Shown: positions 2,809 to 23,619 of the stretch, piece by piece
Layout of the letters: each line of letters starts with the position of its first letter
Position numbering within the stretch: the stretch's first letter is position 1
Virus record (IMG/VR): IMGVR_UViG_3300010150_000147
Span: 1-25,008 of that record
DNA: 25,008 nucleotides
Direction: 5' to 3' (one strand)
Source of the DNA: a virus
Notes under the pieces: model-generated
Told to the model about the DNA's origin: nothing
Seen by the model: only the letters and a program-made list of their open reading frames with translations
Databases searched by the model: none
Position numbers and translations under genes: made by a program

Positions 2809-3360
2809 TTACCTCCACCTTGGACCTTCGAACCATGCGACTAAGGAACGACGAACGCCCTTGGTGACAGGTTCAACTCTATGCAACATGTAACTTGGGA
2901 ATACCAAGACAGTGCCTTTCTCCCTATGCCAGTCGGGTAGTGACTGGTTATGAATACCAAAGCTCCCGCCTTCGTACTCGCTCGGGTCACTCAGTTGCAC
3001 CGTTAATGATATCTTGCGGTCATAAGGAACGTCATGGCTGAATGCCACATCAACGTGCCAATCATAATGACCCTTCTCATCCGCATGATACTCGGTGTAC
3101 TGGACATCGCAACAACGCGTAACGTCGAAAGCAAACGCTCGACGATTCGCTTCTTCCGCGAAACCCCATAGTCGGTCCTTGAGCCAAAGGTTTTCGGATA
3201 GCCAAGAGATACGGCTACGACGAGCCTTATCATTCTCCTCTTTCCGAGCGCCTAGTTTGGCCTTAGTTGATTGCGCGGTAGCCGCAATCTCCGCGACACG
3301 ATCTAAGTCAGCTGACTCAAACCCCTCTTTGCCGCGCCATAGTCTGTGTAGTTCTCTCAA
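2809..3360 (-). CDS. 2-oxoglutarate/Fe(II)-dependent oxygenase (PiuC/PKHD-like)
   Basis: Likely hydroxylates a protein, small molecule or DNA base using Fe(II) and 2-oxoglutarate; substrate unknown. The iron-binding set is visible: HVD in GHYDWHVDVAF, the distal His in MLHRVEPV, then the 2OG-binding Arg in RRSLVAWFEG. RRSRISWL and the EYEGGSFGI stretch also match the family. I chose a TTG start at 3360 because GAGGAG lies six bases upstream; the product is then 183 residues. In-frame ATGs at 3414 and 3447 give 201 or 212 residues, but they lie inside the divergent promoter region and lack a ribosome binding site. First gene of the left minus-strand operon; its stop abuts the next gene's ribosome binding site. 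Confidence 0.85.
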   Translation of the reverse strand: MRELHRLWRGKEGFESADLDRVAEIAATAQSTKAKLGARKEENDKARRSRISWLSENLWLKDRLWGFAEEANRRAFAFDVTRCCDVQYTEYHADEKGHYDWHVDVAFSHDVPYDRKISLTVQLSDPSEYEGGSFGIHNQSLPDWHREKGTVLVFPSYMLHRVEPVTKGVRRSLVAWFEGPRWR

Positions 3361-3386
3361 AGTTTTCTCCTCTTCAGGTGTTGTGG

Positions 3387-3415
3387 TTGACACACAAGTT
3401 CGCGTGTCGTACATT
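3387..3415 (+). promoter_or_regulatory. Sigma70-like promoter for the helicase operon
   Basis: A perfect -35 TTGACA (3387-3392), 17-nt spacer and -10 TACATT (3410-3415, 4 of 6). Transcription would begin near 3422, just before GGAGG at 3426-3430 and the helicase ATG at 3437. It overlaps the opposing promoter for the oxygenase operon. Confidence 0.6.
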
Positions 3416-3417
3416 GG

Positions 3418-3447
3418 ACTATATCGGAGGAAACAAATGAATGTCAA
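3418..3447 (-). promoter_or_regulatory. Sigma70-like promoter for the oxygenase-primase operon
   Basis: Reading on the minus strand: perfect -35 TTGACA (3447-3442), 18-nt spacer, -10 TATAGT (3423-3418, 5 of 6). The predicted start of transcription near 3411 lies upstream of the TTG codon at 3360 but downstream of the ATG at 3414, which supports the TTG start. The -35 sits inside the first codons of the helicase gene. Confidence 0.6.
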
Positions 3448-8472: not shown

Positions 8473-8927
8473 GCTACTGTCTCCTTCAATAAGTTTTTAA
8501 AAATGTTTATGGTATCCTCAATACCTTCCTCCTCAATCTCAGGTTCCCACGAACGATCTTCCCCGTGATGATACTCACCCTCAAACATACCACCCTCGTC
8601 CTGATAATCCGCTTGAACCTCAATGCCCATCGCATGCAACTTATCCCACACTGGGATAGGCGCACCCCATGCCGTCCAACAGTTAAACGTGAACCACGCC
8701 TTGCCGCCATCCTTCTCAATGTCGTTGGTGATATCGACATCCACGACATCCCACTTCGTACCCCAGTTTTTCCACCGCCACTCGTACCAGTTCTCGGATT
8801 CAGATAAGGGCATCGGGATTACAAGATCACAGAACCTCGGATCCTCACGCTTCAAGCTAGAGTATAGTTCTTCCACGATGGTCTTGTCCCCGTGGATGTA
8901 CACTTGTTGATCACAATGATTAGGCAT
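8469..8927 (-). CDS. Api92-like (YubB ferredoxin-like) phage protein
   Basis: 152 residues. Opens [14 protein letters not shown] and contains WYEWRWKNWGTKWDV, WFTFNCWTAWGAPIPVWDKL and YQDEGGMFEGEY, the conserved landmarks of the Api92-like/YubB ferredoxin-like family found in phages and plasmids. Molecular function of the family is not established; a role in host interaction or anti-defence is sometimes suspected. An AAGGAG site precedes the ATG and overlaps the methyltransferase end by 8 nt. The C-terminus is acidic (PEIEEEGIEDT). Confidence 0.85.
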   Translation of the reverse strand: MPNHCDQQVYIHGDKTIVEELYSSLKREDPRFCDLVIPMPLSESENWYEWRWKNWGTKWDVVDVDITNDIEKDGGKAWFTFNCWTAWGAPIPVWDKLHAMGIEVQADYQDEGGMFEGEYHHGEDRSWEPEIEEEGIEDTINIFKNLLKETVA

Positions 8928-10110
8928 GTCTCTCTCCTTCTATGTATGTTTCTATTAAACCTTGCGCGACTTGCGCCGTGATGGCATTTCCGTAGGCGCG
9001 CAGTCGTCCCACTCTGGCGGTAGCCCCATCAACCAACGGGCATGTGCTGGGTTCAACTGGCCTCCACTTGCCATCTCGGCAGAAGAGCCAGTCCGCATCT
9101 CTCCAGAAACCGTTAGTCTCATAGGCTCTGTCGGCGGGGAAACTTCCCCCTTCGCTTCCATCACCGCTTCGATCATCGATGGCGCTACCTGCTCCCGAAG
9201 ATTGCACGGGAACGACCTGCCCTTGCGCGTGGTCTGATGCATCCGGATCATCGCCTCCTTGCTCCGCAAGGGTAGACTGTCCATCGTGTTGGGTGTCGCC
9301 CAACCCGACATCTGTCCCTGCTCCGGTAGGTTGTGCCCCCGCTTGTCCCACTTCTTCACCGACTCCGGCTTCGCCGCCCCCTTGTGATCCGATGTCGTCG
9401 GCGTTGCCCAACCCGTGAGTTGCGCTTGCGCTCCCGTGTTCCAACCGTGCTTCCCGTTCAAGTGAGACGGAGCTATGCCCGTGCCCCCCGTCATGGAGGT
9501 CGGCGTTGCCCAACCCGATAGTTGCGCCGTCACGTCCAACGTGTCCGTACTGATCTTCCCGTTGCGAATCCGACCCCCTTGATAACCACCCTTGTGATCT
9601 CGGGTTGTCGGTGTCGGCCACGAACCAGAGACGTTGCCGGATGTGCGGCGCACCGAAGCCCGCAGAGCAAAGATCGAATGCTCCGATGGAGTAGTCCGCT
9701 CCTTCCATGTCAGCTTGTACAAGGTCGATCCAACCGAGCCCGTCTTTGCTTGCAACCTGCTCCCCAAAGACTGTTGAAGGTCGGCACTGTTCGATGAGGT
9801 GGAACCAGTGAGGCCAGAGGTGCCGCTCGTCAGCAACCCCTTTTCCTTTGCCTGCGTTGCTGAAAGGTTGGCAAGGGCAAGAACCCGTCCAGACCGGACG
9901 GTCGTCGTCCCAACCCGCACGTCGGAGCGCGTGACTCCAGACTCCAATCCCTGCAAAGAAGTGGCACTGAGTAAATTCAAAAAGTTCTTCTGGTCTGACA
10001 TCACTGATGCTCCTAGTATCGACAACACCATCTGCGATGTGTCCTGATTTAATTAAATTGCGTAGCCATTGTGCGGCATACGGATCTATCTCGTTGTAAT
10101 AAGCAGACAT
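8920..10110 (-). CDS. DNA (cytosine-5) methyltransferase
   Basis: 396 residues from the ATG at 10110, which overlaps the upstream stop (TGATG) and follows GGAAGG. Transfers methyl from AdoMet to cytosine C5, probably protecting phage DNA from host restriction. Motif I FFAGIG (51-56), catalytic C80 in SCPCQPFS, motif VI as FGEQV in place of the usual ENV, motif [14 protein letters not shown], then near the end [12 protein letters not shown] (motif X). Between about 165 and 345 the expected target-recognition region is low-complexity and Gly/Asp-rich, with repeats GLGNAD, GLGNADD and GLGDTQ. This region is also read in another frame (see 8955-10001), which probably explains its odd composition. 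Recognition sequence unknown. Confidence 0.93.
8955..10001 (-). CDS. Nested overlapping ORF inside the methyltransferase gene
   Basis: 348 codons open in the +1 frame relative to the methyltransferase, same strand. The ATG at 10001 has AGGAG exactly eight bases upstream, though that stretch also codes for methyltransferase. The product is Ser/Thr/basic-rich and contains repeated W-x-T-P-T modules: [46 protein letters not shown]. It ends with [20 protein letters not shown] and a basic RRKSRKV tail. I recall separately deposited phage proteins with this same layout, without known function. It has no obvious enzyme motif. A longer start at 10031 is possible. It may instead be a by-product of methyltransferase codon bias, so confidence is moderate. 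Confidence 0.5.
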
Positions 10111-14955: not shown

Positions 14956-15423
14956 ATGATTAAATATACTACACTAGAATCTCTTACATGGGACATGGAA
15001 TCCGACTTTGTTGAGATGGGGCGGCTTGCGTTTGAAGAGAGCCAGTTCCACGAAACGGTGACCTTTGACCCTGATAAGTTGATTGAGATTGCGCGTTCCC
15101 ATGTCCACGACGCGGGAAAAGTGCTTCATATTGCGGAAGATAATGGCGTTGTTGTTGGTGTTTTTGCTGGTTACAAATCGTCATTTTACTTTAGCTCTGA
15201 CATTTTGTGCCGAGATGTGTTATGGTTCGTCCGAAAAGAGTACCGTGAAACGGGTGTTGGTTTGGTTTTATTGGGGATGTTTGAGGATTGGTCTAAGGGT
15301 CAGGGTACGGATGTGATTTGGCTTAGTCAGGATTCTGGTGTAGACACAGATAAATTTTCGCGGATATTGGGTAAGCGGGGCTATAGTTTCGTTGGCGCGA
15401 ATTACAGTTTAGGAGTTAGCTGA
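14956..15423 (+). CDS. GNAT-like N-acetyltransferase
   Basis: 155 residues. AcCoA-binding motif A appears as RKEYRETGVGLVLL (R97-x-x-G-x-G102), preceded by strands VLHIAEDNGVVVGVFAG and followed by VIWLSQDSGVD; ends GYSFVGANYSLGV. This layout matches GNAT proteins often found among phage structural genes, where they may modify virion or host proteins; the acceptor is unknown. The ribosome binding site is weak. The stop overlaps the ATG of the next gene (TGATG), so the pair is co-translated. It begins the right-hand structural block. Confidence 0.75.
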   Translation: MIKYTTLESLTWDMESDFVEMGRLAFEESQFHETVTFDPDKLIEIARSHVHDAGKVLHIAEDNGVVVGVFAGYKSSFYFSSDILCRDVLWFVRKEYRETGVGLVLLGMFEDWSKGQGTDVIWLSQDSGVDTDKFSRILGKRGYSFVGANYSLGVS

Positions 15424-18400
15424 TGGGCTATTCATTATATAATCCGTTTATGGCGTGGAAGATGGAGCAGCGTACGTTTGGTGATCCGGAACCGAGTCCA
15501 AGTCCGAGTAGCGACCCGAGTCCCTCGCCTTCTCCGTCACCCAGTCCGGCTCCTGCGCCTGCTCCTGCACGTTCTGAGACTGAGGTACAGGCTGACATTA
15601 ACGCGGCATTAGAAGCGAGTGGCGGCGACTGGACTCCTGAGTTAAATGATTTGGTATCTGAGCGGACGGCGGTTCGGGAATCCCCATCACCTGCACCTGC
15701 TCCAGCCCCGTCTCCGACCCCTGCGCCATCACCGAGTCCGACCCCGTCTCCGTCTCCGTCTCCATCACCGTCTCCGAGTCCCAGCCCAACACCGGCTCCT
15801 GCTCCGGCGACTATTGGTTCTGTGTCTTCGACGGGTCAGTATGCTGGTGACGGATTTGAGTGGGTTGAGAACGATGGCGGTTATTTAACTCGAACGTACA
15901 CTGGTGCGAATGCAGATGCGGGTTTGGGGTCGGATGTTATTGCTGGCGGTACGGCGGACAAGGACACTAAAGAGGCTATTGCTCAACTATCTTTAGACGA
16001 GGGTACTCCTTTTGCGAACAGCGCGGGATCGGCTACGGATGGCGACTTATTAAACTTATTTAAGGACGGCACCTTTGGTGCGAGTGACTCTTACGCTGAT
16101 CAGATTGGAGCGGCGACTCCTGCTACTCAGAAGACGGATTACAGTACCGAGAGTAGTTTTGACGATGCTTTTGCGGAAGCTCGTAACAACTTGGGTGCGG
16201 GTCAGACGTTTACTTACAACGGCAGTTCTTATTCTACGGCGGTAGCTGGCGAGGATTCTGCTCTGGACGCGGCGATAGCGTCGTCTTCTGAACCTGGCGG
16301 CACGACATCAGTGCCTGATGTAGAGGTTGGACTATCTCCTGAAGAGCAGTTAATGGAGCAATCTGTAACGACACCAGGTTCTCAGGATTATTTAGATTCT
16401 CTGGGAGAGTTTGATTCATCGGTATTTACGGAACCAGTTTCGACTACGGGTGGTTATGACGAGATCCCTGCTGATTTGTTGGATAGTTCAGGTTCAGGTG
16501 CCAGTGTTTCGCAGGATCTGTTAGATCAGATAGGCGGGGCACCCGGCACGACTATTGAGAGCCTATTACCTGGCAACGCTACTGGCGACACAGATTTAGC
16601 GGACATGAATTTTCAGGAGCGTTTTGATCGTCAGAGTGAGTTGGCTGATGCTGATCCTACGGGTCAGAGTACGGCGACGGGCACACTTCTTTCGGATGGC
16701 TCTACTGTTGACACGTTGGTTTCAGATACGGATGACGGACTCAAGACGTTTGAGGCGACTCGGGTTGCGGGTAGCGACGACCCTGCGAGTATTCAGGAGG
16801 TTAGTTACACTGATTCGCGGGGCAATTCGTTTAGTACGCTTGCTGAAGCTCAGTTATCTGACTCTCAAGATTTGAATCGACAGTTAGCGGCACTTAACAC
16901 AGCGCCTCAAGAGATTAGTTACGTCAATCCGATGGGTGGTCCGGAGCGGTTAATCAACGCTCAAGTTGTTGACGGACCTATTGGTTCGCTGGATCCCAAC
17001 GCGAACAGCAGTTATTCGGGTTCCACTACTTCGTCTGGCAGTGGTGGCATGAGTTATGCTGATATGTTGCGAAGTTCTGGTGTTTCTGACGCAGAAATCT
17101 CAGGAATGCAGGACACAATTCGCACAACACCTGTTGACACGAGAGATCCTCTTAACGCGTTTCCGACGGGCAGTGACATGGGTTCTGACACGTTTGGGAA
17201 CTTTCTTCCTGGTGGTGCAGCGGATACTCTTAAAATAATTGGTTCGGGGCTTGAGTCCATTGGGAACAGGTTTGCGGGTCAGGATATTGCACAGGTTGGT
17301 TATGGCGAGGGTCAAGTTGACCCTGCACTGGCTCGAGCGGTCGGCGTAACTCCTGGGCAAGAAAGTTTTGCGTACGGTGACGAGGCTGCGCTTACGACAT
17401 TTGGTAGGGACATGAAGGACGCGGGACAGGTACTGTCGGACCGCGTAACGGGGAACTTGAGTGAGAGTTACCGTGAGAACCTAGAAGCTCCTATATTTGG
17501 AGACGACGGGTTTAATCTTGACGCTTTGACATCCAAAGTAACGCGGGGCGTTGTTCCGGTTGCTACGGCGGCATCTGGTCTTCTATTTGGCGCACCTGGT
17601 GCATTAGCTACGGGTGCAGTAATGACCACGGGTGACGTTGCGGACAGTACCGATAAACTGGTGCAACAGGCATATGACAACGGGGAACTCGGTCCAATCA
17701 GCGAATCAGAGTTGCAGACTGTCAAGAACGATGTAAGGAACACAGGGTTCGTTCCATCCATGGTTGGTGGTGCGGCGTTGAATCTTATTCCGTTAGCCAA
17801 AGGTCCGATAGCCCAGCGTTTCTTAGCGAACGCGGCGGGTGAGGCATTTGAAGAGGGGATTTACGAGCCCAATGTAGCAAATATAGCTACGGATGTAACT
17901 ACGGGAACGAATTACGGATTGACTGCGGATCCAGATGCCGCGCTAACAGCTGCGGTATTGGGTGGCCCTGTCTCTCTGGCGGGTACGAGTACAACTACGA
18001 ACGCGGCGTCGAACAACGAAGCGGGTCCTAATGTACAAGCGGAATCTCCGGGGAACCCATTTGCGGGTGGACCAGCTAGTGACGTAATCAGCGGCACGTC
18101 GTTGTCATCATCAACGACCAGCGATCCAGTGGTTAATACAGCCCCACCGTCTGTTTTATCTCGTACGCAAACAAGTACGGCTCCTAACATAATCACTATT
18201 CCAGGTACGAATGTTGAGGTTCAGGCTATAGCTCCTGCACAGAACACGGCACCTTCGGGTCCACAAAACTCGGGGCTTGGTTCTTTGGGTACGGGCGGTA
18301 CGTTTGTACAACCTAACCAAGGTTCTGTTCCGGCGTTGCCTGCACCGTCTGATGTGGATTCGGCACCGAATGTAGATGCATCCCCACCTGGTCTAACGGC

Positions 18401-19670
18401 ATCGGAGATCTTGCAAAACGAGGTTGATATTATCACGACGGACACGAACACTTCGGTTGAGGACGCGAAAGCGGGGGCGGCGAGTCTGTCTCTGATTGAA
18501 ACGGCTCAAGCTGCGGGTGCGAATGTACAGAATGGCGATAGCCGAGCCAAGGTTGAGCAGGAACTAGGTATAATTACCGAGTCCCAGCCTGAAGCAGGCA
18601 CAGGTTCGTTGGATGCCGCGGAGGCGTCGTCACAAACTACACTTCCGGAAGTTGATGTAGGTTTGATTAATCAAACACCGCAAGTTGATTTACCTGCGGG
18701 AGTTGGTTCATTGGATGCTGCTGCGGCATCGTCTCAGCCGGATCCTACGAGTCAGACAGATCTCTCTAACGTGGATGTAAGCAATATTAACGCAAGTCCC
18801 GATCTTCCTTTAGGTGTAGGATCTTTGGACGCGGCGGTTGCTGGTTCTCGTCAGAACTTAACTCCTGAAGGTATTATTAGCCTTGAGGTTGCTGAAACAG
18901 GTGCCTTATCGAATGAGACGGCTCAAAAACTTGCAACAGAAAACAATCTGTCTATGCAGGATGTAGCAAACATGGCTGAGAATGCTATGGGGTTAGAGAC
19001 TTCTCAAGCTACAGGTCCGAAGACGGACGTAGATGTAGCTGCTACTGTTGAGGTTGTTGACCCATCGACTGGTGGTACGGCAATGGCTGCGGGTCAGCAG
19101 GGTGCAAAAACTGCAACAGAAGGGTTTGTGTTTGATGGCGAAGTCATAGATCCTGTCTCAGATGTCAGTGTTGACGTTCAAGAAGAGGTTGACCCATCGA
19201 CGATTGAGGGAACCCTTGGATCTAGAGATGTGCAGGTGTCAGAGCCATCGACCACAGTGGAGACAAGTATTCCCGTGGAGACAAACGTCCCCGTTGATAC
19301 TTCCGTTACTACAACGACTAACGTCCCTGTTGATACTTTCCCACCTGACGCAGAAGAAGAAGAAGATGAGGTTGTTGTTGAAGTTGATGAGCCAGTGGTG
19401 TCGGATCCAAGTGGTCCCGGCGATGACGACGATGACGACGTAGTGGTGGATATTGACACGGGTGACAGGGATGACGACGATGACGACGAAGTTGTTGACG
19501 AAGCTCCGTTCACATGTCCAGATGGATATGAGGCGGTGAAGATCAACGATGAGTGGCGTTGTCAGGCCACGGACGCTGCACCAGCGAGAATGCGACCAAC
19601 AGGTGGCTCTTACTATCAGCCCCGCAAACCTTCTCCTGCATCCAAGGCGAAAGCCTATAGGTTCCGCTAA
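15423..19670 (+). CDS. Large low-complexity protein, probable virion component
   Basis: 1415 residues. Two Pro-Ser/Pro-Ala runs (about 22-50 and 87-129) lead into a long Ser/Thr/Asp/Gly-rich region. A hydrophobic stretch at about 708-736 (VVPVATAASGLLFGAPGALA) could insert in membrane. Residues about 1060-1145 hold three copies of a module around GSLDAA with intervening D-V-S/G-L-I-N, and acidic runs near 1345-1360 precede a final TCPDGYEAVKI / RCQ two-Cys motif and a basic tail. Its size, repeats and place directly before terminase and portal suggest a virion protein, perhaps an internal or ejection protein, but no catalytic domain is visible. It is co-translated with the GNAT gene upstream and the terminase downstream. 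Confidence 0.75.
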   Translation: MGYSLYNPFMAWKMEQRTFGDPEPSPSPSSDPSPSPSPSPSPAPAPAPARSETEVQADINAALEASGGDWTPELNDLVSERTAVRESPSPAPAPAPSPTPAPSPSPTPSPSPSPSPSPSPSPTPAPAPATIGSVSSTGQYAGDGFEWVENDGGYLTRTYTGANADAGLGSDVIAGGTADKDTKEAIAQLSLDEGTPFANSAGSATDGDLLNLFKDGTFGASDSYADQIGAATPATQKTDYSTESSFDDAFAEARNNLGAGQTFTYNGSSYSTAVAGEDSALDAAIASSSEPGGTTSVPDVEVGLSPEEQLMEQSVTTPGSQDYLDSLGEFDSSVFTEPVSTTGGYDEIPADLLDSSGSGASVSQDLLDQIGGAPGTTIESLLPGNATGDTDLADMNFQERFDRQSELADADPTGQSTATGTLLSDGSTVDTLVSDTDDGLKTFEATRVAGSDDPASIQEVSYTDSRGNSFSTLAEAQLSDSQDLNRQLAALNTAPQEISYVNPMGGPERLINAQVVDGPIGSLDPNANSSYSGSTTSSGSGGMSYADMLRSSGVSDAEISGMQDTIRTTPVDTRDPLNAFPTGSDMGSDTFGNFLPGGAADTLKIIGSGLESIGNRFAGQDIAQVGYGEGQVDPALARAVGVTPGQESFAYGDEAALTTFGRDMKDAGQVLSDRVTGNLSESYRENLEAPIFGDDGFNLDALTSKVTRGVVPVATAASGLLFGAPGALATGAVMTTGDVADSTDKLVQQAYDNGELGPISESELQTVKNDVRNTGFVPSMVGGAALNLIPLAKGPIAQRFLANAAGEAFEEGIYEPNVANIATDVTTGTNYGLTADPDAALTAAVLGGPVSLAGTSTTTNAASNNEAGPNVQAESPGNPFAGGPASDVISGTSLSSSTTSDPVVNTAPPSVLSRTQTSTAPNIITIPGTNVEVQAIAPAQNTAPSGPQNSGLGSLGTGGTFVQPNQGSVPALPAPSDVDSAPNVDASPPGLTASEILQNEVDIITTDTNTSVEDAKAGAASLSLIETAQAAGANVQNGDSRAKVEQELGIITESQPEAGTGSLDAAEASSQTTLPEVDVGLINQTPQVDLPAGVGSLDAAAASSQPDPTSQTDLSNVDVSNINASPDLPLGVGSLDAAVAGSRQNLTPEGIISLEVAETGALSNETAQKLATENNLSMQDVANMAENAMGLETSQATGPKTDVDVAATVEVVDPSTGGTAMAAGQQGAKTATEGFVFDGEVIDPVSDVSVDVQEEVDPSTIEGTLGSRDVQVSEPSTTVETSIPVETNVPVDTSVTTTTNVPVDTFPPDAEEEEDEVVVEVDEPVVSDPSGPGDDDDDDVVVDIDTGDRDDDDDDEVVDEAPFTCPDGYEAVKINDEWRCQATDAAPARMRPTGGSYYQPRKPSPASKAKAYRFR

Positions 19671-21133
19671 TGAACTTACAGGCACTTCCCGAGGACGCAT
19701 TAAAAGAAATACTCGCGCTCACAGAGGCGAAGAAAAAACTGGACTTGCGTGAAGAAGCGCAAGACCATTTCATGCCGTTTGCACATCATGTGTACGAAAA
19801 CTTTATTGAGGGTCGTCATCACAGGGTTATTGCAGAAAAACTTGAGCTTGTAGCACAAGGTAAGCTCAAGCGGCTCATAATTAACATGCCACCTCGACAT
19901 TCCAAGTCAGAGTTCGCGTCGTTTTTGATGCCAGCTTGGTTCTTGGGACGCAACCCAAAGTTAAAGATCATACAAGCTACACACAACACAGAGCTTGCGG
20001 TGCGTTTTGGGCGTAAAGTTAGGGATCTTATTGATGATCCTGCGTACAAAGAGGTGTTTCCAGAGACAAATTTGAAGGAGGACAACAAAGGTGCGGGTAA
20101 ATGGCAGACTGATAAAGGTGGGGAATACTTTGCGGCGGGTGTGGGAGCGGCTGTCACAGGCCGTGGTGCGGATTTATTCATCATTGATGACCCGCATTCG
20201 GAGCAAGATGCGCTAAGTGAGAGCGCATTTGACAATGCGTATGAATGGTACACTTCGGGGCCACGCCAACGTCTACAACCGGGTGGTTCAATCATTCTGG
20301 TTATGACGAGATGGGGAAAGAAAGACTTAACGGGTAGATTAATCTCTGCGCAAGGCAGTGATATCATGTCTGATCAGTGGGAAGTTGTAGAGTTTCCAGC
20401 GATTCTTCCTTCAGACAAAGCCTTATGGCCTGAGTTCTGGGAAAAAGATGCGTTACTGGGAATAAAAGCCTCTCTTCCGGTGTCTAAGTGGAATGCGCAG
20501 TGGCAACAACAACCTACAGCGTCGGAATCTGCTATAATCAAACGAGATTGGTGGCAGTCGTGGACGGAAGAGAAGATACCTCCTGTAAAATATATATTGC
20601 AAGCGTATGACACGGCTTTTTCTAAGAAGGAAACAGCAGACTATTCAGCTATCACAACATGGGGGATCTTTGAGCCTGAAGAAGGTGGCCCTGATAACAT
20701 AATTATGATGGACGCTCGACGAGGTCGTTGGAATTTTCCTGAACTAAAGGAGATAGCGTATGAGGAACACGAATACTGGGAGCCCGATATGGTGTTGGTC
20801 GAAGCAAAAGCGACGGGTACACCACTCATTGACGAGTTGCGGCTTCGTGGTATTCCAGCCTTGGGCTTCTCCCCTGGTAAAGGAAGGGATAAGGTGACAC
20901 GAATGCACATGGTTGCGCCATTGTTTGAGGCGGGAATAGTGTGGGCACCAGAAGACCAGAAGTTTGCGGATGAAGTGATTGAAGAAGTTGTTTCATTTCC
21001 TAATGGTGACTATGACGACTTTTGTGATAGTATGACGTTAGCATTGATGCGTTTTAGACAGGGTGGGTTTATTTCCTTGCAGAACGAGGACGAGGGGAAC
21101 GACTTTGTTCCTAGAACACGGGAGTATTACTGA
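19670..21133 (+). CDS. terL: Terminase large subunit
   Basis: 487 residues. Packaging motor ATPase and headful/cos nuclease. Walker A-like PPRHSKS (74-80), Walker B LFIIDDPH (169-176), coupling-region motif VMTRWGKKDL, then an RNase H-fold nuclease with D314 (AYDTAF), E378 (LVEAKATG) and D450/D453 (DYDDFCDSM). All required residues are present and the length is normal. Start overlaps the preceding stop (TAATG); stop overlaps the portal ATG. Its small-subunit partner is encoded 8 kb upstream across the minus-strand island. Confidence 0.95.
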   Translation: MNLQALPEDALKEILALTEAKKKLDLREEAQDHFMPFAHHVYENFIEGRHHRVIAEKLELVAQGKLKRLIINMPPRHSKSEFASFLMPAWFLGRNPKLKIIQATHNTELAVRFGRKVRDLIDDPAYKEVFPETNLKEDNKGAGKWQTDKGGEYFAAGVGAAVTGRGADLFIIDDPHSEQDALSESAFDNAYEWYTSGPRQRLQPGGSIILVMTRWGKKDLTGRLISAQGSDIMSDQWEVVEFPAILPSDKALWPEFWEKDALLGIKASLPVSKWNAQWQQQPTASESAIIKRDWWQSWTEEKIPPVKYILQAYDTAFSKKETADYSAITTWGIFEPEEGGPDNIIMMDARRGRWNFPELKEIAYEEHEYWEPDMVLVEAKATGTPLIDELRLRGIPALGFSPGKGRDKVTRMHMVAPLFEAGIVWAPEDQKFADEVIEEVVSFPNGDYDDFCDSMTLALMRFRQGGFISLQNEDEGNDFVPRTREYY

Positions 21134-23619
21134 TGGCACTGCCACCACGCCCAATGGGCTCAATAGTAGATTCGGGACAAACGCAAGGTGGGTTTGATGA
21201 GAACCTCCCATCGGTAGACGTATCCGTACCACAAGTAGAAGATTTTGCCGGAGGGGCAGAAGTTATCCCTCAAGAAGACGGCACAGCGGTTGTTCAGGCT
21301 TTAGCGGACATGATCCAGCAGGCCGAGGCCGAAGCGCCTATGGAACACAACGCCAACCTAGCAGATTTTCTTGACGAGGGTTATCTTGGTGAGTTGTCAA
21401 CCGAGTTGAGAGCGGCATACGAGGACGATCAGGAGTCCAGATCCGAATGGGAAGAAGCCTACACAAAAGGCTTGGATCAGCTAGGCGTTAAGGTAGTAGA
21501 GCGTACAGAGCCATTTCAGGGTGCCAGTGGAGTAACACACCCTCTGATAGCTGAGAGCGTCACACAGTTCCAAGCACAGGCGTATAAAGAGCTTTTACCA
21601 GCGGGTGGGCCAGTTGCCACACAGATACTTGGCAAACAGGATCCAGAGCGTGAGGCGCAAGCCCAGCGCGTAAAGAATTTTATGAACTACAACATTATGG
21701 AAGTGATGGAAGAGTACGACCCAGACATGGATCAACTTCTGTTCTATTTGCCGTTGTCGGGTTCTACGTTTAAAAAAGTTTACTACGACGAAGCCAAACA
21801 GCGGCCCGTAGCAAAGTTTATTCCGGCTCAAGATTTGGTTGTACCGTATCACGCGAGTGATTTGGCGACGAGTCCGCGAGTGACGCATGTTCTTCGCATG
21901 GATTACAACGAAGTTCGTAAGATGCAGGTTGCTGGTTTCTACCGCGACGTTGACCTACAGACTAGCGATGCGGGACCGGACGAGGTACGCGAGAAGGTAG
22001 ACGAAATACAAGGCACAAGCAAAACGTATGCAGATGATGTATATACATTGCTTGAGATGCATGTTGACGTTGACCTCGAGGGTTTTGAGGACATGTCACC
22101 TGACGGCGAGGCCACAGGTATTCAGCTGCCTTACATTGTTACCATAGACCAAGAGTCTGGAGAAGTATTAGGTATTCGCCGGAACTTTGAGGAAAATGGC
22201 GAGTTAGCTAAGAAGCAGCAATATTTCGTACACTACAAGTTCATGCCTGGTCTTGGGTTCTACGGCTTTGGTTTAATCCACATGATTGGTGGTTTAGGTC
22301 GTGCGGCTACCAGTATCTTACGTCAGTTGATCGACGCTGGTACTCTAGCGAACCTTCCGGCTGGTTTTAAGGCTCGTGGAGTGCGTGTACGCAATGATGA
22401 TGAGCCACTACAGCCTGGAGAGTGGAGGGACATTGACGCCCCTGGTGGGAACATTAGAGACTCTATTATTCCACTGCCATACAAGGAACCATCAGCCACC
22501 TTGGCGCAGTTGCTTGGTGCGTTGATCGAAGGTGGTCGTAGGTTTGTGTCGTTAGCTGACCAGCAAGTCAGTAACATGAATCAAGAGACGCCTGTTGGCA
22601 CAACGATGGCGATGCTAGAGCGCGGCATGAAAGTTATGTCCGCTATTCATAAGCGACTACACTACGCTCAGAAGACAGAGTTTCGGATTCTAGCAAGAAT
22701 CATTTCAGAAAATCTACCGCCTGAGTATCCTTACGAGGTTGCTGGGGCAGAGCAGTCGGTAAAAGCGCAAGATTTTGACAGGCGCGTGGATATTATACCT
22801 GTTAGCGACCCAAACATCTTTTCCATGGCTCAACGAGTGACTTTGGCGCAGACTCAGCTACAGTTAGCTCAGTCGAACCCTCAAATGCACAACCTTCATG
22901 CGGCATATCGACGCATGTATAACGCACTTGAGGTTCAAAACATAGATGAAATCTTACCACCACCGCCACAACCTAAACCTATGGATCCAGCATTAGAGAA
23001 TGCTCGTGGTCTAATGGGTCAGTTGTTGCAAGCCTTCCCCGATCAAGACCATGATGCACATATTCAAATACATGTGATGTTTATGAAAACGCCGTTGGTG
23101 AGTACATCTCCGCAGGTGATGGGTACATTCTACGCTCACTTACAAGAACACATCGCCATGAAAGCGCGTCAGGTGGTTATGCAAGAAATTGAGGGACTAA
23201 TTAGTCAGGTACAATTAAATGCTCAGATGGGTGCGGTCGATCCTATGCAGGCGCAACAGAAGATCCAAGAGGTTCAGCAGCAGATGCAGAACCCAGCAGA
23301 GGTTGAGAAACTGGTTGCCATGCAGGAAATGCAGATCATGCAGAAGACTCTCGCGGAGATTACGCCGCAAGGACAGAGTGCAATGGATGATCCATTGGTT
23401 CAAATACGCATGCAGGAGCTTGCCCTTAAACAGCAGTCGGAGCAACGCAAAGCGGAAATGGATCAAGCGGACATGATGATGGACGCGGCAAGACTTCAAC
23501 AACAAGCGGCAACAGACGCGGCTCGGATTGAAAGTTCAGAGGAAATTGCCGACAATCGAAACGAAGTTAATCGTGAGCGCATTGCTGTGCAGAGACAAAA
23601 TGTGTTGAGGAGGGGATGA
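21133..23619 (+). CDS. Portal protein (SU10-like)
   Basis: 828 residues. Forms the dodecameric ring through which DNA enters and leaves the capsid. Typical SU10-portal landmarks: EWEEAYTKGLDQLG, ERTEPFQGASGVTHPLIAES, KKVYYDEAKQRPVAKFIPAQ, FVHYKFMPGLGFYGFGLIHM, and QQVSNMNQETPVGTTMAMLERGM. From about 640 the C-terminus is very Gln/Met-rich and coiled-coil-like (QQKIQEVQQQMQ), longer than many portals. Directly after the large terminase, as usual. This portal family is known mainly from podoviruses, which supports a short-tailed virion. Confidence 0.93.
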   Translation: MALPPRPMGSIVDSGQTQGGFDENLPSVDVSVPQVEDFAGGAEVIPQEDGTAVVQALADMIQQAEAEAPMEHNANLADFLDEGYLGELSTELRAAYEDDQESRSEWEEAYTKGLDQLGVKVVERTEPFQGASGVTHPLIAESVTQFQAQAYKELLPAGGPVATQILGKQDPEREAQAQRVKNFMNYNIMEVMEEYDPDMDQLLFYLPLSGSTFKKVYYDEAKQRPVAKFIPAQDLVVPYHASDLATSPRVTHVLRMDYNEVRKMQVAGFYRDVDLQTSDAGPDEVREKVDEIQGTSKTYADDVYTLLEMHVDVDLEGFEDMSPDGEATGIQLPYIVTIDQESGEVLGIRRNFEENGELAKKQQYFVHYKFMPGLGFYGFGLIHMIGGLGRAATSILRQLIDAGTLANLPAGFKARGVRVRNDDEPLQPGEWRDIDAPGGNIRDSIIPLPYKEPSATLAQLLGALIEGGRRFVSLADQQVSNMNQETPVGTTMAMLERGMKVMSAIHKRLHYAQKTEFRILARIISENLPPEYPYEVAGAEQSVKAQDFDRRVDIIPVSDPNIFSMAQRVTLAQTQLQLAQSNPQMHNLHAAYRRMYNALEVQNIDEILPPPPQPKPMDPALENARGLMGQLLQAFPDQDHDAHIQIHVMFMKTPLVSTSPQVMGTFYAHLQEHIAMKARQVVMQEIEGLISQVQLNAQMGAVDPMQAQQKIQEVQQQMQNPAEVEKLVAMQEMQIMQKTLAEITPQGQSAMDDPLVQIRMQELALKQQSEQRKAEMDQADMMMDAARLQQQAATDAARIESSEEIADNRNEVNRERIAVQRQNVLRRG

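Follow-up and report, generated by a model that had tools for sequence, protein, structure and literature searches.

A phage C5-cytosine methyltransferase gene with an overprinted +1-frame gene that probably encodes the target-recognition half of a two-chain enzyme

The window analyzed here is a 25 008-nucleotide stretch of viral DNA (IMG/VR record IMGVR_UViG_3300010150_000147, positions 1 to 25 008). Its minus strand carries a C5-cytosine DNA methyltransferase (C5-MTase) frame of 396 aa, here called alpha (8920..10110), which contains motifs I to VIII and motif X, and, inside this ORF, a second ORF of 348 codons in the +1 frame, here called beta (8955..10001). All coordinates of the locus are on the minus strand. 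The beta start codon ATG (9999..10001) spans the alpha codons D-V and is preceded, 8 nt ahead, by the Shine-Dalgarno (SD) sequence AGGAG (10010..10014), which lies in the alpha codons R-S. Upstream of alpha motif VIII (9625-9642), beta contains a 16-residue pre-module segment (9684..9731) that is strongly conserved in the alignments. It is followed by four W-x-T-P modules: module 1 of type T0 (9513..9620, WPTPT at beta residue 128), module 2 of type T2 (9411..9512, WATPT at residue 164), module 3 of type T5 (9303..9410, WATPT at residue 198), and module 4 of type T4 (9140..9302, low end approximate, WATPN at residue 234). An 18-residue motif IX candidate (9009..9062), in register with RxLSxxFxEWMMGLPxGW of single-chain actinophage methyltransferases, and a basic tail ending in PSRRKSRKV complete the protein. 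In the alpha frame, the segment beneath the modules is a low-complexity linker (residues 167-330, 9121..9612), a passenger frame by its dN/dS and its shifted wobble position, and the chain ends with a 19-residue motif X containing GNA (8950..9006). The first-pass annotation had reported the +1 ORF with its AGGAG and ATG, four W-x-T-P-T/N modules and basic tail, and all of these were found as claimed.

Elsewhere in the window, a protein of 1415 aa (15423-19670, plus strand) without a match in Pfam, PHROG, or PADLOC is encoded directly ahead of the terminase large subunit (19670-21133) and the portal (21133-23619). A 2OG-Fe(II) oxygenase is encoded at 2809-3447 on the minus strand (PF13640, E = 1.6e-14).

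A close examination of alpha identifies it as a C5-MTase catalytic chain, with motifs I, IV (PCQ), VI, and VIII, the sequences CPCQPFS and IRQR, and the large-domain fold. The family phrog_363 matches it with E = 8.6e-86, and Pfam PF00145 with E = 2.8e-10 over residues 75 to 165 only, the similarity ending by motif VIII. In the AlphaFold2 model, residues 1 to 169 are mostly well modelled, as is the C-terminal helix of motif X (residues 379-395), and residues 170 to 343 have a mean pLDDT of about 30. The best Foldseek matches of this model are M.HhaI (E = 6e-7 over ~170 columns) and M.HaeIII, with ~170 to 200 columns aligned in the large-domain part only, and the model has no small domain. No target-recognition domain (TRD) or motif IX of its own was found in the alpha chain, where residues 167 to 335 are neutral and modelled with a pLDDT of ~30. 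The same division is seen in 71 complete loci: GNA of motif X lies in the alpha frame in 61, and motif IX lies in the alpha frame in only two, both with a frame disturbance, the motif IX candidate being in the +1 frame in 64. Motif VI of the alpha family (9751-9768 in the window) reads G-E-Q-V and is invariant in 49 sequences, where usual C5-MTases have E-N-V. Some loci depart from the layout of the window. In two loci of identical sequence (L173 and L326; the main frame of L173 starts at 2346), alpha meets a stop codon within the linker, ahead of a motif X that is still encoded, and beta is uninterrupted. In five others (L083, L324, L338, L352, and L346) alpha and beta swap frames or are interrupted; single-base indels or a stop codon seem to be the cause, and these may be natural or sequencing errors.

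None of the 46 non-redundant relatives interrupts the +1 frame with a stop. When the codons of the window methyltransferase frame were shuffled synonymously, the beta stretch acquired 5.6 stops on average and remained stop-free in 0.05% of cases; across the 46 relatives the mean was 4.9 stops, and 0.16% stayed open (P = 0.0016 per gene). Of 71 complete loci collected by the alpha catalytic domain only and without the use of beta, 70 have a +1 ORF of 200 aa or more (median 309), compared with a median of 24 codons in the +2 frame. In the 80 genome loci fetched by beta, it always overlaps alpha in the same +1 offset. Synonymous changes in the methyltransferase frame that freely break the beta frame, which the first-pass annotation had named as the sign of a by-product, did not occur in the relatives. 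Openness by itself is nevertheless weak evidence in GC-rich genes, because an ordinary C5-MTase taken as control (L166) also has an open +1 run of 258 codons. Such a run is what can be said for the reading that the +1 frame is an untranslated codon-bias by-product of a GC-rich methyltransferase gene, together with the lack of any Pfam or PDB match to beta alone, and it is the substitution pattern that decides.

The start region of beta already speaks against a by-product. The SD and ATG are built from alpha codons for (D/E)-R-S-I-x-D-V, and the choice among synonymous codons at these positions is far from that of the background, as expected of codons under selection. The Asp codon at the beta start is GAT in 134 of 152 relatives (88%), against 419 of 1563 in the background (27%; p = 3e-51), and the Arg codon at the SD is AGG in 74 of 155 relatives (48%), against 93 of 1214 (8%; Fisher p = 4e-33). 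The ATG occupies the same position in 45 of 46 loci. SD and ATG are both present at this site in 93 of 155 loci, and an SD with a start codon up to 30 nt upstream in 27 more; in the remaining 35 of 155, no recognized SD and start were seen at the expected places. A clade that lacks AGGAG here has GGAG and an ATG 18 nt upstream instead. An alternative in-frame ATG 30 nt upstream (10031) would give a protein of 358 aa; the SD and the conservation favor the start at 10001. Codon choice at the SD and ATG thus suggests that beta has its own translation start, from which it is probably translated.

To compare rates in the two frames, as the first-pass annotation had proposed, we used an OLGenie-like count, in which changes are split by their effect in both frames. 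The count was run on 630 pairs, which are non-independent and include saturated sites, and the values given here are instead bootstrapped estimates from 19 independent pairs. Before the beta start, where the two genes do not yet overlap, dN/dS is 0.11 for alpha and 1.54 for the beta frame, which is unconstrained there. Along the catalytic overlap alpha remains at 0.09 to 0.13, and beta falls from 0.83 to 0.42 and then to 0.30, with an alternate-frame NN/NS of 0.30 to 0.42 in the stretch ahead of the modules (reference codons 81-166). In the module region (codons 167-335) the constraint changes frame, with 0.87 (0.68-1.22) for alpha and 0.23 (0.12-0.33) for beta. At the C-terminus (codons 336-388) the values are 0.27 and 0.43, respectively. 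Purifying selection therefore acts in both frames over the shared codons 81 to 166 and 336 to 388. The raw differences per codon position agree with this: under the modules they amount to 0.336 at frame-0 position 1, where beta has its wobble, and to 0.039 at position 3, whereas in the non-overlapped 5′ end the two values are 0.121 and 0.490. The compared segments and loci are related, so that the substitution counts are not independent events; the contrast is nonetheless large.

It follows that beta is confirmed as a real gene, overprinted and with an initiation site of its own, as the first-pass annotation had described. That the +1 frame is a codon-bias by-product is extremely improbable: the frame stays open against the shuffles, the start and SD codons are selected, alpha is neutral and beta constrained in the module region with the wobble moved accordingly, and homologues of beta sit in frame within single-chain methyltransferases (see below). 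We discarded this explanation on the shuffles, the dN/dS by frame, the wobble position, and the SD and start codon choice. The idea of two proteins sharing codons holds in the catalytic and C-terminal parts of the gene and fails over ~170 codons between them, in which selection is confined to the +1 frame. From motif VIII to motif X, alpha is carried along as a passenger, and for this reason the low complexity of the methyltransferase segment is a by-product, not, as had been proposed, the mark of two constrained proteins.

What beta encodes was approached by homology. A Pfam and NCBIfam search of 43 beta members and a PDB profile search returned nothing relevant, and AlphaFold2 applied to beta alone with 38 relatives gave a pLDDT of 39 and no usable fold. 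Two PHROG families match beta, phrog_31772 (E = 8.1e-34) and phrog_1008 (E = 1.9e-32), and both are already labelled “DNA methyltransferase”, so that the gene is less undescribed than the first-pass annotation supposed. The family phrog_1008, which was built independently, also matches the beta of Salmonella phage epsilon15, Mycobacterium phage Zaka gp90 (9e-86), the Chickaboom beta, and residues 258 to 493 of Gordonia phage MelBins gp5 (9.7e-56), and phrog_363 matches both the window alpha and MelBins gp5. In reciprocal searches, an actinophage beta HMM was run against 6112 six-frame ORFs, and the best 25 matches listed are all at beta-ORF positions. Single modules match between window-type and actinophage betas with E-values down to 3e-9, and shuffled proteins gave none below 1e-3; module type T4, for example, matches the actinophage beta ORFs L297 (E = 3e-6) and L276 (by inspection). 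For the motif IX candidate, HHalign against actinophage methyltransferases gave probabilities of 33% to 53% (E = 2e-5 to 8e-5), and against ordinary C5-MTases a plausible register with a weak score (probability 1%, E = 0.018). By phrog_1008 and the reciprocal HMMs, beta is homologous to the part of a single-chain C5-MTase that runs from motif VIII to motif IX.

Among actinophages, these parts are put together in several other ways. In the first, represented by Mycobacterium phage Zaka gp91/gp90, Lilbooboo gp32/33, and Chickaboom gp41/42, a catalytic ORF is accompanied by a +1 ORF with LPTP modules, motif IX, and motif X. These “DNA methylase” pairs resemble the window locus in having a catalytic ORF and a +1 ORF with modules and motif IX, and the betas of Zaka and Chickaboom share PHROG 1008 with that of the window; they differ in that the ORFs overlap by just ~190 to 440 nt and that motif X is on beta instead of alpha. 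In the second, MelBins gp5, a single chain contains the catalytic domain, in-frame LPTP modules, motif IX, and motif X. It has all parts of the window locus and matches both phrog_363 and phrog_1008, with the difference that everything is in a single reading frame. In the third type, the catalytic domain, a linker, motif IX, and motif X are in frame 0 and the modules alone are in the +1 frame. Here the wobble goes to the +1 frame beneath the modules (0.471 at position 1 and 0.071 at position 3) and returns to normal in the motif IX-X region (0.453 at position 3). A further actinophage gene, Mycobacterium phage Graduation gp47 (L168), is annotated as one methyltransferase and has a 107-codon +1 run from about position 1384 with one LPTP module, which the beta HMM matches with E = 1.7e-4.

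The best reading of beta is then as the other half of the enzyme, with putative target-recognition modules and motif IX. The first-pass annotation was on the right track with a methyltransferase partner, although the gene looks like the missing half of the enzyme and not an unrelated partner. One may argue that beta, although a real protein, does something unrelated, for instance as a methyltransferase regulator or an anti-restriction protein, and that the overlap is incidental. Beta has no match to a solved fold, and much of its N-terminal third, which overlaps the catalytic motifs, has no match of known function. This is still very unlikely, given that the same segment of modules and motif IX is found within single-chain C5-MTases and that alpha lacks motif IX and modules precisely where beta carries them.

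Taken together, the locus is highly likely to encode a two-chain C5-MTase that is assembled in trans. According to this model, one DNA stretch would give both chains. The main frame would supply the catalytic motifs I to VIII and motif X on alpha, and initiation at the internal SD and ATG, 109 nt into the alpha gene, would produce beta, which would supply four modules of ~35 residues as target-recognition units, and then motif IX. Alpha and beta would join into one active enzyme, and the alpha frame beneath the modules would be an unselected, disordered linker from motif VIII to motif X. A swap, gain, or loss of modules would change the methylated sequence or sequences and, with them, the host restriction enzymes that the phage may evade. 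Such an assembly is compatible with what is known of C5-MTases, in which the small, DNA-reading domain consists of the variable region and motif IX, and which can be split between motif VIII and the TRD and then reassemble (PMC3404938). The two frames might also be joined by programmed ribosomal frameshifting, from the alpha N-terminus into the +1 modules and motif IX and perhaps back for motif X, and it is true that single-chain relatives fuse the same parts in the order I-VIII, modules, IX, and X. However, a frameshifted product would not need the selected SD and ATG of beta, reaching motif X would require a second shift back, and the constrained beta segment upstream of alpha motif VIII could be used only by sacrificing that motif. 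In the third actinophage type, moreover, a single shift would lose both motifs IX and X. A simple frameshift fusion is thus disfavored by the selected SD and ATG and by the type-3 arrangement, and we regard it as improbable.

Turning to the modules of the two-chain enzyme, 559 of them were delineated in 176 betas, with a median length of 35 aa and 1 to 6 (mostly 2-4) per protein, and they sort into 72 sequence groups, the largest of which is a loose single-linkage lump. When betas with N-termini at least 85% identical are compared, the module string differs in 157 of 192 pairs and is the same in 35, and gains and losses concern one module at a time. Xanthomonas phages PhiXhv-5 and PhiXhv-28 are an example of natural variants with different modules. 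This exchange between close phages is what one would expect of specificity cassettes. By this behavior and by analogy, we think it fairly probable that each module reads its own DNA sequence, which would make the enzyme multispecific. In a variant of the two-chain model, beta would use one module at a time and keep the rest as a reserve for recombination, the enzyme being monospecific. The range of 1 to 6 modules and the single gains and losses fit such a reserve, which is nonetheless unlikely, though worth keeping in mind: purifying constraint on the beta frame is clear for the module region as a whole, and Bacillus phage enzymes array several TRDs in one protein (PMC8936443, PMC12707154).

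The arrangement is present across phages and prophages of many Proteobacteria. A tblastn search with beta against phage records returned 203 records from many genera, including Salmonella phage epsilon15 and phages of Klebsiella, Pseudomonas, Xanthomonas, Burkholderia, and Vibrio, and confirmed relatives number at least 595 in IMG/VR and 145 among prokaryote genomes. A plasmid search gave 16 records, mostly non-mobilizable, of which most are annotated as DNA cytosine methyltransferase. Most annotated records inspected call just one of the two frames; both are called in a few records of Xanthomonas phages. In Erythrobacter phage vB_EliS_R6L (L002), alpha and beta are both open at full length, and the annotation at the locus consists of just a 384-nt “cytosine-specific methyltransferase” and the antisense gp54, which looks spurious. 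In a distant search of E. coli, DNA related to the methyltransferase gene of ESSI2_ev129 was found in 66 of 5426 complete genomes; the matches listed carry the annotation DNA cytosine methyltransferase, and a VRR-NUC protein overlaps some of them. If the two-chain model is correct, many phage and prophage “DNA cytosine methyltransferase” genes (in epsilon15, Klebsiella, Pseudomonas, and Xanthomonas phages, and proteobacterial prophages) are half-annotated, the protein that chooses the methylated DNA is missing from many records, and cloning alpha alone is expected to fail. The gene is also an unusually strong case of a long, widely conserved same-strand overlap, for which selection switching frames along the gene serves as an internal control, and an exchange of its natural modules makes the specificity of this phage methylation directly testable. 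On balance we lean toward a still broader view, namely that these loci form a very widespread class of phage methyltransferases, whose specificity would reside in a hidden +1 cassette array with the methyltransferase frame above it neutral, in which motifs IX and X changed frame in different lineages, and which would act as multispecific heterodimers with the second chain absent from many records.

The nearest precedent is M.EcoHK31I, whose small gene lies within the large gene in another frame. In this two-polypeptide C5-MTase (YGGCCR), motifs I to VIII and X are on the large chain and motif IX on the smaller one, as at the window locus, and the predicted TRD was assigned to the large chain (PMC3404938). 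The window locus differs in the last respect, with its modules encoded by beta and a neutral TRD region in alpha, and also in that beta carries 1 to 6 repeated modules and that the genes are those of phages and prophages. M.AquI, an alpha/beta C5-MTase, is likewise split in two chains (PMC3404938), but within the variable region, and its small chain carries motif IX as well as motif X. The multispecific methyltransferases of the Bacillus phages SPR, SPbeta, phi3T, and H2 carry tandem TRDs with several targets in one chain, which protect against several restriction systems (PMC8936443, PMC12707154); like the window locus they are phage C5-MTases with modules in tandem, and they differ in being a single polypeptide and in having the multispecificity that is only predicted for the window enzyme. 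No overprinted phage methyltransferase partner was found in the literature searched. The split principle is thus already known from M.EcoHK31I, and so are the PHROG families of these proteins, whereas the module array and its exchange, the wide and mostly unannotated distribution, and the shifting of motifs IX and X between frames in actinophages are new.
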